A stretch of 30,225 nucleotides of DNA, taken from a virus. Below the pieces are notes generated by a model. It was given only the letters and a program-made list of their open reading frames with translations, did not search any database and was not told the origin of the DNA. Numbering within the stretch: position 1 is the first letter of the stretch; every line of letters begins with the position of its first letter. The DNA is taken from positions 1 through 30,225 of IMG/VR virus record IMGVR_UViG_3300031673_000336. The stretch is one strand, 5' to 3'. Shown piece after piece: positions 9,972-20,684 of the stretch. A program made the position numbers and the translations under genes.

Positions 9972-10036
9972 AGAAAATAAAAGAATATCTTTATTGCCTT
10001 ATTATAAATTGGATATATGGAAGAATTGATGAGTAG
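9968..10036 (+). CDS. Possible 22-aa peptide
   Basis: A short frame in an ATGA overlap, MKKIKEYLYCLIINWIYGRI plus DE. It is amphipathic to hydrophobic in the middle. The frame fills the 45-base space before the next gene and overlaps its start by 20 bases (8 if that gene begins at 10029). It could be a leader peptide for translational coupling. The evidence is weak. Confidence 0.3.
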   Translation: MKKIKEYLYCLIINWIYGRIDE

Positions 10037-10394
10037 TGTGCTGCACTACATAGAAAAAGACGAATTAAAAAAACGTTGTAGACAAAGAAAATACGTACAT
10101 AAAAGAATATACTTTTTTAACGTTTTAAGAACTGCTGGATATACTTATCAAAGTATAGGCGATTTATTCGGATTAAATCACGCAACAATAGTACACGGAA
10201 TTAAAACTTTTAAGATTTTAAAGAAAGCAAAAGATCCGTTAATGTTTCTAGATATTGCAGAATATGATGGAAAGTTTAAAATCAATGATACAAAGTACGA
10301 TTTAAAAACGGATATTTTAAAAGCTACAACAATTAGAGATTTACAAATAATAAAAGGAAGAACAGAAAAAGAACTTTATAAAGAATTAATATGA
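10017..10394 (+). CDS. DnaA domain-IV-like DNA-binding protein
   Basis: 125 aa. Residues ~24-66 (YVHKRIYFFNVLRTAGYTYQ, then SIGDLFGLNHATIVHGIKTF) match the helix-turn-helix of DnaA domain IV, where the signature is IGxxFGxxHxTVxxA. There is no AAA+ ATPase domain, so it is not a full initiator. The C-terminal half (residues 67-125) is basic and helical. A protein with this part alone could bind DnaA boxes in the phage origin or occupy those of the host. It overlaps the ParB-methyltransferase gene by 4 bases. A second ATG at 10029 could be the start. Confidence 0.7.
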   Translation: MEELMSSVLHYIEKDELKKRCRQRKYVHKRIYFFNVLRTAGYTYQSIGDLFGLNHATIVHGIKTFKILKKAKDPLMFLDIAEYDGKFKINDTKYDLKTDILKATTIRDLQIIKGRTEKELYKELI

Positions 10395-11797
10395 TACAAG
10401 TAAAAGAAGAATTTAAGAATTTGATACCAGCATTAAGTGCTGAAGAATATGCGCAGCTTGAAGCAAACATATTAGAAGAGGGAATAAGAGAGCCTATAAT
10501 AACTTGGAACGGATTTATAATTGACGGTCACAACAGGTTTAGTATAGCACAACGATTTGATGTAGAGTATAGAACTACAAGCAAACATTTTGCAAGTGAA
10601 GAAAGCGCAAAAGAATGGATGATACTAAACCAATTTGGCAGACGTAATTTAAGCAACTATCAACGCAGTGTTTTAGCTTTAGAACTTGAAGAAGTTTTTA
10701 GTAAAAAAGCAAAGGAAAATATAGCAATTGAAAATAAAAACAGAAGCACCGATTCGGCAAAATTGCCAAAACGGGATTCTGTAGATACACGAAAAGAACT
10801 TTCTAAAGTTGCACAAGTTGGAGAAAGGACTTTAGGAATGGTTAAAAAAATACAAGAGAAAGCACCAGAAGAAGTAAAAGCAAAACTTGCAACAGGCGAA
10901 GTAAGTATAAACGCAGCTTACAAAGAAATAAAAGCAGCAGAACAAAAAGACATAAGCAATAAGAATAAGCTTGAAAATTTTGATAAAACCGAAGAAGTAA
11001 AAGATTTAAGAATTATTCAAAATGACTCTAATATGTTTTATGTTTCAGGTGAAAAAAGCGAAAAGCGTTTTGGTGACACTTTTTGTAGTGTAACAGATAA
11101 AAAATATAATACAGTAACAACTATTGGGCGTATTTTTCACAAAGAAACAGGTTTAGAATTTTCATTAAGAGAATATGCAGACGTACAAATGTTTACTAAA
11201 GATTTTAAATTTGTAGGTAATTATTCTTCTATAAAGAAACAAATAGGAAATGCAGTAAGTCCTTTTATGGGTGCTTATATTTCTAAAAACTTAAAAGGAA
11301 AAACCGTAGGAGATATTTTTGCAGGTTGTGGAGGTTTTACTTCTGGCCTACATAAAAACGGAAAAAAAACAAAGTGGTCTATTGAATGGGAAAACATTGC
11401 CTGTCAATCTTATAAATTAAACTTTCCAGACACAAAAGTTATATGTGCAAATATTACAAAAGTAAATACTTTAGAATTGGAAAAAGTGGATATTATTGTA
11501 GGAGGCCCACCTTGTCAAGGTTTAAGCAATGCAGGAAGTGAAAAACGTAATAATACACAAAGATTTATAGAAGACCCAAGAAATCAATTATATAAAGAAT
11601 TTGTAAGGTTTGTAAAAGATCTTCAGCCAAAAGAGTTTATAATGGAAAACGTAAAAGAAATAGAACAATTTAAAGACGAAATTATAAAAGATTTTAATTC
11701 TGCTGGTTATGATGTAAAAACAAAACTTGTTACAGGTAATGAAATAGGAATGAAACAAAACAGAAAACGATTTTTCTTTTTAGGAACTTTAAAATAA
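10391..11797 (+). CDS. ParB-domain fused to circularly permuted cytosine-C5 DNA methyltransferase
   Basis: 468 aa. Residues 1-100 are a ParB/Srx-type domain (IIDGHNRFSIA at 43-53; QFGRRNLSNYQRS at 81-93), and ~130-180 resemble the ParB helix-turn-helix (TRKELSKVAQVGERTL; KLATGEVSINAAYKEI). The rest has all C5-methyltransferase motifs in permuted order: short target region with TVTT (241-244), motif IX SLREYADVQMF (258-268), motif X QIGNAVSP (284-291), then motif I DIFAGCGG (308-315), motif IV PPCQG with catalytic Cys375, motif VI ENV (419-421) and motif VIII QNRKR (456-460), eight residues from the end. Normal order is I-VIII, target domain, IX, X. It should methylate cytosine C5 with SAM; the target sequence is unknown. 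It overlaps the previous gene by 4 bases. Confidence 0.9.
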   Translation: MIQVKEEFKNLIPALSAEEYAQLEANILEEGIREPIITWNGFIIDGHNRFSIAQRFDVEYRTTSKHFASEESAKEWMILNQFGRRNLSNYQRSVLALELEEVFSKKAKENIAIENKNRSTDSAKLPKRDSVDTRKELSKVAQVGERTLGMVKKIQEKAPEEVKAKLATGEVSINAAYKEIKAAEQKDISNKNKLENFDKTEEVKDLRIIQNDSNMFYVSGEKSEKRFGDTFCSVTDKKYNTVTTIGRIFHKETGLEFSLREYADVQMFTKDFKFVGNYSSIKKQIGNAVSPFMGAYISKNLKGKTVGDIFAGCGGFTSGLHKNGKKTKWSIEWENIACQSYKLNFPDTKVICANITKVNTLELEKVDIIVGGPPCQGLSNAGSEKRNNTQRFIEDPRNQLYKEFVRFVKDLQPKEFIMENVKEIEQFKDEIIKDFNSAGYDVKTKLVTGNEIGMKQNRKRFFFLGTLK

Positions 11798-11801
11798 TCA
11801 A

Positions 11802-12176
11802 ATGAAAAATGACTGGCAAAATAACAGAATAAGCAAAAAGCTGAATTTAGAATATCCTACATACTTTTCACTTTGCGATATAGATGGAGCAGTAAGATGC
11901 GAACCATCTCCATTTAACGACATAGATAAAACAAGATTAATTATTTACGAAAGTAAAAACGAAAAAGAGAAACTTATGGGAAGCAGTCAATTAACAACTT
12001 TAAAAACAATACAAGAAAGTATAGAGTGGAGTAGTTTTGATGCAGAAAGTGGAGTATTTGTTATGAAAATAATTGATTTAGAAACGCAGATTATCTGGTA
12101 CGATTTACAAGGAACTGAAGTTAGAAGAACTAATTTTAATGAATTGTACAATGTTTTTAGGGGTAAAACAATCTAA
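11802..12176 (+). CDS. Unknown 124-aa protein, methyltransferase neighbour
   Basis: 124 aa, soluble, starting MKNDWQNNRISKKLNLEYPT and containing paired Cys (SLCDIDGAVRCEPSP) and a beta-rich C-terminus (VFVMKIIDLETQIIWYDLQG). It begins 4 bases after the methyltransferase stop and ends the operon before the promoter-like box at 12183, so it is co-transcribed with the methyltransferase. It could be a partner of that enzyme, but I recognise no family. Confidence 0.68.
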   Translation: MKNDWQNNRISKKLNLEYPTYFSLCDIDGAVRCEPSPFNDIDKTRLIIYESKNEKEKLMGSSQLTTLKTIQESIEWSSFDAESGVFVMKIIDLETQIIWYDLQGTEVRRTNFNELYNVFRGKTI

Positions 12177-12182
12177 TTTAAT

Positions 12183-12190
12183 TATATTTG
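12183..12190 (+). promoter_or_regulatory. Promoter-like -7 box TATATTTG
   Basis: An exact TAnnTTTG box, the same octamer as at 8902 and 15305. A start 5-8 bases downstream would place the RNA 5' end at the first arm of the structured RNA (12195). No clear TTG is seen at the -33 spacing, so strength is uncertain. Confidence 0.5.
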
Positions 12191-12194
12191 TGGA

Positions 12195-12273
12195 GTTGGT
12201 AGGACAATCAAAATATTTAGAGTATAGCGTAAGTAAGTGTTCCTACCCACCGAAAGCGTTATACTTTTTTTTT
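12195..12273 (+). ncRNA. Predicted H-type pseudoknot RNA ending in a T tract
   Basis: Stem 1 pairs 12195-12204 (GTTGGTAGGA) with 12241-12250 (TCCTACCCAC), 9 of 10 positions. Stem 2 pairs 12221-12230 (AGTATAGCGT) with 12256-12265 (GCGTTATACT), 10 of 10 including two wobbles, and can extend two pairs outward. The 5' arm of stem 2 is in the loop of stem 1 and its 3' arm lies beyond stem 1, which is a pseudoknot layout. Nine T follow (12265-12273), so stem 2 also reads as an intrinsic terminator. With the box at 12183 this is either a free ~75-nt small RNA or a regulated leader of the gene at 12286. The pairing was done by eye; the expression model is inference. Confidence 0.55.
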
Positions 12274-12285
12274 AACCTATAATTT

Positions 12286-12858
12286 ATGGCAGAAAATAAA
12301 AAAAGCTTTTTACTTTATTGCGACTTATTGCATACGGTCAAGAAGTTAAATGATGAACAGGCTGGAAAGCTATTTAAACACGTTTTAGAGTACGTTAATG
12401 ACCTGAATCCAGAAACCGAAGACATTATAACAGATTTATGTTTTGAGCCGATAAAACAAAACTTAAAACGTGATCTACAAAAATACGAACAGATAAGAGA
12501 AAAGAAACGTGAAGCAGGAAAGAAAGGTGCTACAAAAAGATGGCAGAATATAGCACCTGTTAAAAGTGCTAAAAAGAAAATGGCAAACATAGCCGTAAAT
12601 GTTAATGTTAATGATAATGTAAATGATAAAGATATATATAGGTGCTTCGCACATTTGTCTATGTCTTTAGATGAATTTAACAAATTAGAAAAGGATTACA
12701 CTAAACAACAAATTGATGGTGTATGTGATGCGATCCAAAACTTTAAGAAAAACACGAATTATAAAAGTTTATATTTAACTGCTAAAAATTGGCTAAAGAA
12801 AGAACAAACAAAAAAAGAAGTAGAAAGTAGTAATGGATTTAAAGCACCCTGGCAATGA
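12286..12858 (+). CDS. Replication organizer-like protein (DUF6291-type N-terminus)
   Basis: 190 aa. The N-terminal 60 residues ([20 protein letters not shown], then [17 protein letters not shown]) match the DUF6291 type found in phage replication proteins. Then comes a basic linker [16 protein letters not shown] (~80-95), typical of phage replisome organizers. The C-terminal ~65 residues ([20 protein letters not shown], then [15 protein letters not shown]) look like a DnaD/DnaT-type primosome domain. It likely binds origin DNA and loads the helicase encoded directly downstream, whose gene it overlaps by 4 bases. It is preceded by the RNA element at 12195-12273, which may control it. Confidence 0.65.
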
Positions 12859-13754: not shown

Positions 13755-14047
13755 TGGATAGTTTAGAAATACTAAAAGCAAAGATTAACCTACAAACAAC
13801 TATTATTAAGTTCACAAGTAGTATAGAGGAGTTACAGGCAAAGCATCCGGAACGTAAAGACTTAATAGATTCAATGGTGGATAGTTTAGAAGACATCAGC
13901 TATTTTCAATCCGTGTTTATGCAGTTTGAAGACCAATATTTATTAGAATGTAAAAGTAATTTACGTTTACAGATGGTTATAAGTGAACAAAAACACGAAT
14001 TAGAAAAGCTAAATATTTTAGTAAAAAACTTAAAAGAGGGTATATGA
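13754..14047 (+). CDS. Unknown 97-aa coiled-coil protein
   Basis: 97 aa, almost wholly helical with heptad spacing (ILKAKINLQTTIIKFTSSIE; then KHELEKLNILVKNLKEGI). No TM or Cys pair apart from one Cys (LLECKS). It sits between the helicase and a methyltransferase with 1- and 4-base overlaps. A dimerising accessory of replication is possible, but no family is recognised. The motif AAACACGAA occurs in its 3' part (13991). Confidence 0.65.
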   Translation: MDSLEILKAKINLQTTIIKFTSSIEELQAKHPERKDLIDSMVDSLEDISYFQSVFMQFEDQYLLECKSNLRLQMVISEQKHELEKLNILVKNLKEGI

Positions 14048-14778
14048 TTAATTTAATAAAGGGCGATTGCTTAATAGAAATGAAGAAGATTATAAGTGGT
14101 TCTGTTGATGCAATAATTACAGACCCGCCCTACGGTACAACTGCTTGTAAGTGGGATAGTGTTATTGACTTTGGGTTAATGTGGGAACAACTTAATAGAG
14201 TAATTAAGCCTAACGGAGCGATAGTATTGTTTGGAAGTGAACCTTTTAGTAGTGCTTTACGAATGAGCAATATAAAATATTTTAAATACGATTGGGTATT
14301 TCATAAAACATTGCCTGTTGGACATGGGTATGCAAAATATAGACCGATGAGCAATCATGAAATTATAAGCGTGTTTGGAAAAGGTAAAGTTACATATAAC
14401 CCACAATTTACACCAAGAGAAAAACCAAGAACATACACAAGAAAAAATGCAAGTAAAAGCGGTAGCAGTAGTATGACGAGCCACGACGGAAAAACTAGGG
14501 TTTTAAAAGGTAGGCACCCAACAACTATACAAAAATTTAATACAAGTGTACAAAAAGGAAAATTACACCCAACCCAAAAGCCTTTAGCTTTAATGGAGTA
14601 TTTGATACGCACGTACACCAACGAAAACGAAACAGTTTTAGATTTTACAATGGGTTCAGGGTCTACAATGGTAGCGTGTCAAAACACGAATAGAAACGGA
14701 ATAGGAATAGAGCAGGATGAAAACTATTTCAAAGTAGCACAGGATAGAATAAAAGAAAACGAATACAAATTATTCTAA
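14044..14778 (+). CDS. Amino (N6-A or N4-C) DNA methyltransferase, copy 1
   Basis: 244 aa. Catalytic motif IV DPPY at 27-30 precedes the SAM-binding motif I region DFTMGSGSTM (200-209), the beta-class order. Other landmarks are GDCL (7-10), LFGSEPFSSALR and HPTQKPLALMEYLIRTY. The middle (~95-170) is basic and low in hydrophobics (TPREKPRTYTRKNASKSGSS) and should be the target-recognition part. The protein at 19917 has nearly the same ends but a different middle, so both derive from one gene. It transfers a methyl group to an amino group of A or C; the site is unknown. No restriction enzyme is nearby, so self-protection is likely. Confidence 0.9.
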   Translation: MINLIKGDCLIEMKKIISGSVDAIITDPPYGTTACKWDSVIDFGLMWEQLNRVIKPNGAIVLFGSEPFSSALRMSNIKYFKYDWVFHKTLPVGHGYAKYRPMSNHEIISVFGKGKVTYNPQFTPREKPRTYTRKNASKSGSSSMTSHDGKTRVLKGRHPTTIQKFNTSVQKGKLHPTQKPLALMEYLIRTYTNENETVLDFTMGSGSTMVACQNTNRNGIGIEQDENYFKVAQDRIKENEYKLF

Positions 14779-15300
14779 ATGCCACGTTGTAAAAACTGCA
14801 AAGAGAAATTTGAAGTAAAACACTTCAATCAAAAGTATTGCTTTAAAAGTGATTGTGTTCGTGTTTGGGTAGAAACTGCAAAGGTCAAGAATTGGAAGAA
14901 AGAAAAGAAGAAATTGAAAGACGAATTAGAAACGGTGCAAAGCTTAACTAAAAAAGCACAGGTATACTTTAATGCGTACATTCGTGAACGTGATAAGCAT
15001 AAACCTTGTGTAAGTTGCGAAAAGCCGTTAGGAAGTAAATTCGATGCTGGTCATTACTACTCAAGTACGTTTAAAAATACTACGTTCAATGAGAAAAATT
15101 TGCACGGACAATGTGTATTTTGTAATCAGCATCAACACGGAAACCTACTAAACTATCAAATTGGTATAGAAAAACGAATAGGAGGCGAAGAATTAATAAA
15201 ATTACACGAAGAAGCACACAAGATAAGAAAGTATACAAGAGAAGAATTGAAAGATATAATAGAAATGTATAAACAAAAAAAGAAAGAATTAAATAAATAA
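14779..15300 (+). CDS. ninG: NinG-type recombination endonuclease (lambda NinG/Rap family)
   Basis: 173 aa. A zinc-binding N-terminus, C4-x2-C7 and C21-x4-C26, is followed by a Lys-rich helix, the family signature QVYFNAYIRERDKHKPCVSC, then DAGHYYS and the HNH-like CVFCNQHQHGN. The C-terminus has IEKRIGGEELIKLHEEAH. Lambda NinG (Rap) cleaves recombination intermediates such as Holliday junctions. Here it stands with the Erf-type, exonuclease and SSB-like genes (15337-16917). It starts directly after the methyltransferase stop. Confidence 0.9.
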   Translation: MPRCKNCKEKFEVKHFNQKYCFKSDCVRVWVETAKVKNWKKEKKKLKDELETVQSLTKKAQVYFNAYIRERDKHKPCVSCEKPLGSKFDAGHYYSSTFKNTTFNEKNLHGQCVFCNQHQHGNLLNYQIGIEKRIGGEELIKLHEEAHKIRKYTREELKDIIEMYKQKKKELNK

Positions 15301-18788: not shown

Positions 18789-19920
18789 AATACTTGCGTT
18801 AAAAAAACGAATTAAGATTGTTCAAGGTGGAACATCAGCAGGAAAGACATACGGCATACTTCCTATCTTAATAGACAGAGCAGCCAAAACACCTGGCACA
18901 GAAATAAGCGTTGTAGCTGAATCTATTCCACACTTAAGAAGAGGGGCTTTAAGAGATTTTGTAAAGATTATGAAATCAATAAACAGGTTTGTAGATGACA
19001 GATTTAACAAGTCACTACTTAAATACGAATTTGCAAACGGAAGTTTTATAGAATTTTTTAGTGCAGACGATTCAAGTAAGTTAAGAGGTGGTAGGCGTTC
19101 AATACTTTACATAAACGAGTGTAATTCAGTAAGCTTTGAATCTTACAACGAATTATCTATACGTACAAAAAACGAAGTATTTTTAGACTACAATCCAACG
19201 GCAGAATTTTGGGTACAAACAGAAATAGAAGATCAAGAAGATGCAGAAAAGATAATACTTACTTACAAAGACAATGAAGCACTTGATAACGGAATCATAA
19301 GCCAAATAGAAAAGAACATAAAGAAAGCAGCTACAAGCAACTATTGGAAGAATTGGGTACGTGTTTATGTAGATGGCGAAATGGGACAATTAGAGGGCGT
19401 TGTATTTAGTAATTGGAAACAGATTGATACAATACCAGACGAAGCCAGGCTAATAGGCATAGGAATCGATTTTGGATATACAAACGATCCAACGAGCTGC
19501 ATTGAAATCTACAAACATAACGAAACACGAATACTAAACGAACTAACCTATCAAACAGGATTATTAAATAGTGACATAGCAAAAATACTTCCAAGCAACG
19601 TTCCTTGTTATGCAGATTCAGCAGAGCCAAAAAGTATTAGAACTATTCAACTATCTGGAATCACAATAAAAGGCGTTACGAAAGGGCGTGATAGTATCAA
19701 CTACGGAATAGATGTTATGCAACGTGAAAACTATTTAGTTACTTCTAATAGCACAAACCTAATTAAAGAACTTCGTTCATATTGTTGGGACACAGACAAG
19801 ACAGGAAAACGACTAAACAAACCTGTAGACAATTTCAACCACGCAATCGATGCCGTTAGATACCACGAGATGGAAACGTTAGGAATGAATAAGAATTACG
19901 GAAGCTACAATATATTATGA
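18760..19920 (+). CDS. terL: Terminase large subunit
   Basis: 386 aa, the packaging motor. ATPase: Walker A GGTSAGKT (23-30), Walker B SILYINE (114-120, Glu120), coupling region FLDYNPTAEFWV. Nuclease (RNase H-like): Asp237 in GIDFGYTNDPT, Asp286 in YADSAEPKSI, and Asp364 in DNFNHAIDAVRY. This is the Terminase_3/XtmB-type layout and somewhat shorter than average (~430 aa). The start at 18760, 29 bases before the small-subunit stop, leaves the normal short lead before the Walker A motif. The end overlaps methyltransferase copy 2 by 4 bases. Confidence 0.95.
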   Translation: MFQRTTAINKILALKKRIKIVQGGTSAGKTYGILPILIDRAAKTPGTEISVVAESIPHLRRGALRDFVKIMKSINRFVDDRFNKSLLKYEFANGSFIEFFSADDSSKLRGGRRSILYINECNSVSFESYNELSIRTKNEVFLDYNPTAEFWVQTEIEDQEDAEKIILTYKDNEALDNGIISQIEKNIKKAATSNYWKNWVRVYVDGEMGQLEGVVFSNWKQIDTIPDEARLIGIGIDFGYTNDPTSCIEIYKHNETRILNELTYQTGLLNSDIAKILPSNVPCYADSAEPKSIRTIQLSGITIKGVTKGRDSINYGIDVMQRENYLVTSNSTNLIKELRSYCWDTDKTGKRLNKPVDNFNHAIDAVRYHEMETLGMNKNYGSYNIL

Positions 19921-20684
19921 TTGATTTAAGAAAAGGCGATTGTTTAGAAGTGATGAAAACAATTAAAGATAAAAGTATTGACGCTATTATAACAGACCCA
20001 CCATACGGAACGACTGCCTGCAAGTGGGATAGCGTTATAGATTTTGATTTGATGTGGGAACAACTAAACAGGATTATTAAGCCTAATGGAGCTATTGTTT
20101 TGTTTGGTCAAGAGCCTTTTAGTAGTGCTTTAAGAATGAGTAATTTAAAACTATATAAGTACGATATTAAATGGCATAAAGATAAATGTAGCAACTTTAT
20201 TCACGCTAAAACACAACCGAGAAAAACCATTGAAGATGTTATAGTTTTTAGTAAAGGAGGTACTACACATAATTCAAAAATAAAATATACTTATAACCCT
20301 CAAAAAACAAAAAGAAAGGAAAGAAAAAAAATGCCTAAAACACAGAAATCTGAAAACCAAAAACAAATAAGGAACGGTAATGCAACCTTGTTTTATGGTG
20401 TTGGTTTTGAAAAAGATAAAAATTACCCTGAAAGTTATATTTATATACCTACTGACCATTTAAAAAGACTACACCCAACGCAAAAACCAATAGCATTAAT
20501 GGAATACTTAATTAAAACCTATACAAACGAAAATGATACGGTTTTAGATTTTACTATGGGAAGTGGTAGTACAATGGTAGCGTGTCAAAACTTAAAGCGA
20601 AATGGTATAGGAATTGAACAAGACGAAAACTATTTTAAGATAGCACAAGACCGAATAAAAGAAAACGAATATAAATTATTTTAA
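19917..20684 (+). CDS. Amino DNA methyltransferase, copy 2
   Basis: 255 aa, a paralogue of the 14044 gene. Residues 1-~92 are almost the same (DPPY at 27-30, then GTTACKWDSVIDF and LFGQEPFSSALRMSN), and the last ~75 residues are nearly identical (HPTQKPIALMEYLIKTYTNE; DFTMGSGSTM at 211-220; EQDENYFKIAQDRIKENEYK). The middle ~95-180 differs completely (IKWHKDKCSNFIHAKTQPRK; a Lys-rich stretch; ESYIYIPTDHLKRL), so a different target site is expected. It is coupled to the terminase by ATGA, so it is made in the late phase, whereas copy 1 is in the replication block. Confidence 0.9.
   Translation: MIDLRKGDCLEVMKTIKDKSIDAIITDPPYGTTACKWDSVIDFDLMWEQLNRIIKPNGAIVLFGQEPFSSALRMSNLKLYKYDIKWHKDKCSNFIHAKTQPRKTIEDVIVFSKGGTTHNSKIKYTYNPQKTKRKERKKMPKTQKSENQKQIRNGNATLFYGVGFEKDKNYPESYIYIPTDHLKRLHPTQKPIALMEYLIKTYTNENDTVLDFTMGSGSTMVACQNLKRNGIGIEQDENYFKIAQDRIKENEYKLF

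Follow-up and report, generated by a model that had tools for sequence, protein, structure and literature searches.

The question raised by this locus is whether a phage methylase that appears to be an orphan acts alone or together with a partner. The viral DNA analysed here (positions 1 to 30,225 of the IMG/VR virus record IMGVR_UViG_3300031673_000336; this whole 30,225-nt stretch is called the window) contains an open reading frame (ORF) at 10391-11797 (+) that encodes a single unbroken chain of 468 aa, in which a ParB-like domain is joined to a C5 cytosine methyltransferase (MTase). Directly behind it, at 11802..12176 (+), a small ORF encodes a 124-aa protein, P0002, which we describe below as a predicted PD-(D/E)XK nuclease and partner of the MTase. 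We favor the interpretation, with a probability of roughly 0.7, that the locus is a phage-borne restriction-modification (R-M)-like pair that moves between phages as a cassette while its ParB scaffold stays constant, such that the "orphan" ParB methylase is probably one half of a complete, swappable R-M pair.

The ParB-like module occupies 10391..10921 (+), residues 1-177 of the fusion, and, as found by comparison with PHROG ParB families and by alignment, consists of a ParB/Srx domain with DGHNR at residues 45-49, a variable helix-turn-helix (HTH)-linker, and a hinge with the sequence SINAAYKEIK. Residues 1-207 match phage ParB-like families, with PHROG 12047 matching residues 21-207 at E=1e-10. 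The same module was found in viral contigs with 56-94% identity to window residues 1-177. A first scan yielded 12 such contigs (56-92% identity), and none of those complete enough to judge continued as a C5 enzyme; instead, they continued as DPPY amino-MTases (Pfam N6_N4_Mtase) or MT-A70 enzymes. A wider scan of viral contigs gave 202 ParB-module relatives, of which 80 were kept, and 79 of these loci contain a complete fusion. The module is thus present in at least 80 viral contigs, joined to MTases of the DPPY or MT-A70 type, and to a C5 enzyme only in the window and in one other contig, L151. All 79 complete fusions contain an MTase. On these sequence comparisons, it is the ParB module that stays constant in the locus and the MTase that is exchangeable.

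A small ORF lies directly 3′ of the MTase in all 79 complete viral ParB-MTase loci, which represent 63 distinct pairs. These ORFs are 121-186 aa long where complete, and they mostly overlap the MTase stop codon: those with an ATG start begin between 26 nt before and 6 nt after it, and the six remaining cases have a comparable ORF that uses a different start. The genes are co-inherited as well as adjacent, as in type II R-M systems. Over the 63 distinct pairs, MTase similarity and nuclease similarity were correlated with r=0.80 (0 of 2000 permutations), and the corresponding values for ParB residues 1-75 were r=0.02 with the MTase and r=0.08 with the nuclease.

These data bear on the explanation that the locus serves anti-restriction only, in which the ParB-MTase would be an orphan methylase directed against host R-M systems and swapped to track host defences, and the small nuclease would function in DNA metabolism. 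Solitary MTases are common in phages (PMC4176335), the window phage has two further amino-MTases (beginning at 14044 and 19917) without adjoining nucleases, and an MT-A70 relative stands alone in Polaribacter phage Danklef_1. However, a nuclease-like ORF that follows the ParB-MTase in 79 of 79 complete loci and is exchanged along with it is not expected on this explanation, and the small nuclease does not appear to be a housekeeping protein because such a gene should track the phage backbone and not the MTase. We consider anti-restriction alone to be unlikely, and the suspicion raised in a preliminary description of this DNA, that the fusion is more than a plain anti-restriction enzyme, gained support.

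The limits of the exchanged unit were located by comparison with L005, a near-identical phage whose flanking proteins are mostly 91-100% identical to those of the window. In a blastn alignment, the two phages are 89% identical up to position 11014, have no match above threshold within 11015-12176, and are 94.7% identical from 12177, the base after the nuclease stop codon, where homology restarts. It was found that six other syntenic loci have a right edge at 12135-12177 and left edges at 10976-11059. Because homology breaks at 11014 and 12177 and in these six other loci, the exchanged cassette, 11015..12176 (+), comprises the MTase catalytic part and the nuclease.

The small ORFs fall into about 13 clusters, most of which do not recognize one another in BLAST. 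When 58 divergent members were aligned, the top columns (after the start Met) included D (84%, with E in 16%), E (69%, with D in 12%), and K (67%, with R in 17%), in the spacing of a PD-(D/E)XK motif. The pattern D-x(8-28)-h[ED]xK was present in 53 of 59 small ORFs compared to 28.5 in shuffled sequences (maximum 40), a count in which independence is inflated by family kinship. In the P0002 family, D28, E50, and K52 (E50-x-K52) are invariant in five homologues, and the invariant residues of other families are D35/D37, E52, and K54 (A4), D30, E45, and K47 (A5), and D36, E49, and K51 (A6). A profile comparison linked P0002 to A5 (E=2e-5), whereas there was nothing to A4. Weak Pfam matches of the small ORFs cluster on nuclease families, namely NERD (nine members), UPF0102 (five), and VRR_NUC (three; best 2.6e-5), followed by PDDEXK_5 (three) and by Hjc, AHJR, and HSDR_N (one each). 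One family matched archaeal Hjc in a PDB profile search (E 0.007-0.013), and such searches with families A3, A4, and A6 returned no nuclease.

An AlphaFold model of P0002 has the order alpha-beta-beta-beta-alpha-beta, with D at beta2 and ExK after beta3; fold and motif are therefore those of a PD-(D/E)XK nuclease, at a model confidence (pLDDT) of only 65. With VIA-align, the 15 best structure matches of this model were Hjc/RecU nucleases (Z 6.3-4.6), with mainly tRNA-splicing endonucleases next, and Foldseek gave no significant match. Taken together, motif, homologues, predicted structure, and locus position support the identification of the small ORFs as nucleases, although no single line would suffice.

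The matches to Hjc and RecU, and the location of the locus within a replication/recombination region with Erf and exonuclease genes, would also suit a Holliday-junction or branched-DNA resolvase that acts in replication or recombination and is regulated by MTase marking of the phage DNA. However, the phage already has a NinG/Rap junction endonuclease (14779-15300), and the many unrelated nuclease families found in the same slot would be odd for one housekeeping function, and so we regard a resolvase role as improbable.

Several observations weigh against the R-M-like interpretation. The nucleases (121-186 aa) are very small for autonomous type II enzymes, and their nearest solved structures are junction resolvases and not restriction enzymes. 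Every nuclease hidden Markov model (HMM) match is weak, P0002 itself had no HMM match in the libraries used, and the confidence of its model is modest. The ORFs in the nuclease position of L002, L174, L183, L212, L221, and L011 lack a plain D...[ED]xK, the C5 version is known from two loci only, and complete R-M systems were found to be rare in phages (9 in 831 sequenced phages; PMC4176335).

Used as a single-sequence query, P0002 found no relative in viral contigs or phages, and relatives were obtained with an alignment query. In L227/L312 and L311 the gene ahead of the relative encodes a DPPY MTase, and in L313 it encodes a conventional C5 MTase that is free-standing; the ORF upstream of this last MTase shares 54% identity with the N-terminal domain of another C5 protein, L153 (see below). 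Since a P0002 relative stands behind a conventional C5 MTase in L313, the gene order there is the ordinary type II R-M order. The small ORF of L235 had no BLAST similarity to P0002. The possibility that P0002 is a missing target-recognition domain (TRD) subunit of the C5 enzyme was rejected because of the relatives behind the DPPY MTase (L227, L311) and the conventional C5 MTase (L313).

The arrangement is not confined to viral contigs: in a genome collection, the ParB module combined with an MTase and followed by a small ORF was present in a Vicingaceae bacterium, Selenomonadaceae, an Omnitrophota metagenome-assembled genome (MAG), Candidatus Methanoperedens, and a Verrucomicrobia MAG, and several of these small ORFs have similar motifs. 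In the same scan, ParB proteins without an MTase had unrelated neighbours. The association of MTase and small ORF is not universal beyond the viral set because other genes come next in the genome fusions L233 and L240. The partitioning of phage DNA that had been proposed for the fusion was dropped: a ParABS system has an adjoining ParA ATPase gene, and the neighbouring and further ORFs that were scanned, part of the ORFs of the window, gave no ParA-like match.

The C5 half of the fusion lies at 10922..11797 (+) (residues 178-468 and the stop codon) and has the motif order IX-X-I-IV-VI-VIII, with the chain ending at residue 468. The motifs are IX, SLREYADVQMF (residues 258-268; 11162-11194 (+)); X, IGNAVSP (residues 285-291; 11243-11263 (+)); I, DIFAGCGG (residues 308-315; 11312-11335 (+)); IV, GGPPCQG with Cys375 (11501-11521 (+)); VI, ENV (residues 419-421; 11645-11653 (+)); and VIII, QNRKR (residues 456-460; 11756-11770 (+)). 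The intact fusion and the motif positions given in the preliminary description were all correct on re-check. Pfam, NCBIfam, and PHROG models place motifs I-VIII at residues 306-468 with the IX-X stretch ahead of them; the Pfam C5 DNA_methylase model (E=1.2e-52) aligned residues 306-468 to profile positions 3-163 of 324 and matched a second, separate stretch. In a phmmer alignment, residues 257-303 correspond to M.HaeIII 275-322 and residues 308-466 to M.HaeIII 5-161. Because these blocks come in swapped order, motifs IX-X have been placed before I-VIII in the window chain, and the circular permutation described earlier is thus confirmed by this alignment and by the second Pfam stretch.

The structure prediction that had been suggested as a check, made with AlphaFold, gave a C5 fold for residues 178-468, with a match to M.HaeIII at Z 17.7 and a root-mean-square deviation of 1.3 over 157 residues, and M.HhaI was also matched. 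The pLDDT exceeds 90 across most of the catalytic part, and residues 178-234, below 50, have no confident model. The TRD-like sequence ahead of motif IX is only about 25-50 residues long, in agreement with the short target region noted before. Motifs I, IV (PPCQ), VI (ENV), VIII, IX, and X together with this fold identify the enzyme as a C5 cytosine DNA methyltransferase. A frameshift or split-gene artefact, which would have undone the reading as one gene, was rejected because the separate contig L151 contains the same chain (459 aa, with the C5 half 88% identical) and the identical end, FFFLGTLK. In the data searched, only these two loci join ParB to a permuted C5 domain. As a whole, the preliminary description was right about the architecture, the permutation, and the short TRD, its suggestion of partitioning gained no support, and it had overlooked the constancy of the ParB module and the adjoining predicted nuclease (11802-12176).

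A search with a permuted-C5 DNA pattern returned mostly noise in a loose version, and in a tighter version only L151, L152, and L153; a whole-length alignment of the fusion with ParB-only rows was misaligned, and a C5-only alignment was used instead. L152 and L153 contain the same short-TRD C5 module (46-47% identical) behind other HTH-like N-termini. In L313 (1716-2991), a separate HTH-like ORF overlaps the conventional C5 MTase gene and is homologous to the N-terminal domain that L153 carries in one chain with its permuted C5 enzyme; fused and split forms of these domains thus alternate. C5 enzymes with permuted motifs are not rare, since colinear matches over about 237-468 were present in phage and plasmid records. 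A 1017-aa protein in L039 (4806-5741) combines an amino-MTase-like N-terminal part with a permuted C5 domain, as may be compared to the Alw26I/Eco31I/Esp3I family.

The permutation itself is of a known type, as had been stated for M.BssHII. Natural permuted C5 MTases, "Type H", include M.BssHII, M.Alw26I, M2.Eco31I, M.Esp3I, and others, with 27 sequences in REBASE, and most permuted C5 sequences have their break after motif VIII (PMC5944983). The window fusion shares with them the order IX-X-I...VIII and the break after VIII, ahead of the TRD, but differs in its very short TRD and in having an N-terminal ParB/HTH domain instead of other partners. Fusions of ParB to amino-methyltransferases were also correctly described as known: a ParB-like domain precedes a DNA MTase in the Wolbachia prophage met genes, which are ParB-adenine-methylase fusions (PMC3089641), in Bce_0392 of B. 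cereus, and in Methanoculleus virus Blf4, whereas the window MTase is a C5 and not an adenine enzyme. In the parts of these sources available to us, neither an adjoining nuclease nor a cassette exchange is described for the Wolbachia, Bce_0392, or Blf4 fusions.

In its gene order, an MTase gene followed by a small predicted nuclease gene, the locus resembles a type II R-M system, and the P0002 relative behind a conventional C5 MTase adds to this likeness. It differs in that the MTase is fused to a phage ParB scaffold, the nucleases are unusually short, and the cassette is swapped at a fixed phage locus, and it is known here from sequence. Solitary phage MTases are likewise phage-borne DNA MTases, but the viral ParB-MTases always have an adjoining nuclease-like gene that changes with the MTase. 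The architecture of ParB-MTase and nuclease is named as a unit by neither PADLOC nor NCBIfam, and no paper on this cassette arrangement was found in the open PMC literature, subscription papers and preprints being outside that scope.

An R-M-like pair is the most economical reading because a modifier and a cutter are co-inherited and the chemistry varies while the partnership is fixed, as matched specificity would yield. In this model, the ParB-C5 fusion would methylate cytosines in short sites of the phage genome, and the small PD-(D/E)XK protein would cut DNA without the mark, whether from the host chromosome or from a competing phage. The role of the ParB/HTH part would most likely be to keep the enzyme bound to DNA, either its own or DNA in replication, and this part may stand in for the missing large TRD; it is possible that the ParB part supplies DNA recognition, as had been proposed. 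MTase and nuclease would pass between phages as one cassette via recombination at conserved arms, with the ParB hinge as the left arm and the stretch past the nuclease stop as the right arm, such that a single locus could hold C5, DPPY, or MT-A70 chemistry, each with a matching nuclease.

The ParB domain might itself be a nicking DNase, with the fusion and the small nuclease jointly attacking host DNA with no matching of sequences. A review (PMC5512222) reports that the ParB part of Bce_0392 nicks DNA nonspecifically, but this explanation leaves the joint exchange of MTase and small nuclease, with a constant ParB start, unaccounted for, and we consider it very improbable. A more tentative extension of the R-M-like model, which we think rather doubtful, is that the ParB module serves as a socket into which complete R-M pairs are fitted. 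The nuclease would then lack its own specificity domain and act in a complex with the ParB-MTase, and restriction specificity would be changed, with any chemistry, by swapping the cassette on the fixed DNA-binding scaffold. Such a locus would amount to a compact R-M architecture carried by phages. In each of the 79 complete phage ParB-MTase loci, the companion gene is tiny and was not confidently identified by the libraries used, and most of these genes have the hallmarks of a nuclease. Should the pairs prove active, some of the "orphan" methylases of phages would be halves of weapons or of self/non-self systems, and fixed scaffolds with exchangeable cassettes would be natural sets for studying specificity swaps and why phages restrict DNA.

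The genes on either side of the cassette locus are constant. The left neighbour, 10017..10394 (+), is a 125-aa ORF that overlaps the start of the fusion and has a DnaA-C-like HTH (Bac_DnaA_C, E=7e-7, just below the cut-off); it is 44-98% identical across syntenic loci and is kept with the fusion in most. The right neighbour, 12286..12858 (+), is a DUF6291/replisome-organizer-like ORF (Pfam DUF6291, 1e-25) that is 71-99% identical in most syntenic loci and 56% identical in L002, whose copy is truncated. A conserved non-coding element, 12177..12278 (+), lies at the cassette's right edge and contains an H-type pseudoknot (12198-12204 paired with 12241-12247, and 12221-12229 paired with 12257-12265), after which comes a T run. 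In 13 distinct sequences, 6 of the 16 pairs have both-sided compensatory changes and 99% are paired (0 of 500 shuffles). The element had no match in Rfam, and it is present behind different cassettes in 14 loci of the window's phage group.

Among the genes of the window phage are those for portal, terminase, amidase, Erf, exonuclease, and NinG. The terminases nearest to its own come from Flavobacterium phages (56%) and the nearest portal from a Nonlabens phage, and therefore the host is likely a marine flavobacterium. A second exchangeable MTase site has a DPPY MTase at 14044-14778 in the window and a conventional C5 MTase at 11398-12510 in L005, between the same flanking genes, with no small nuclease-like ORF adjoining this site. 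The window DPPY MTases at 14044-14778 and 19917-20684 are paralogous (62% overall), with near-identical ends and a different middle, at the TRD position, which looks like an exchange of specificity domains.
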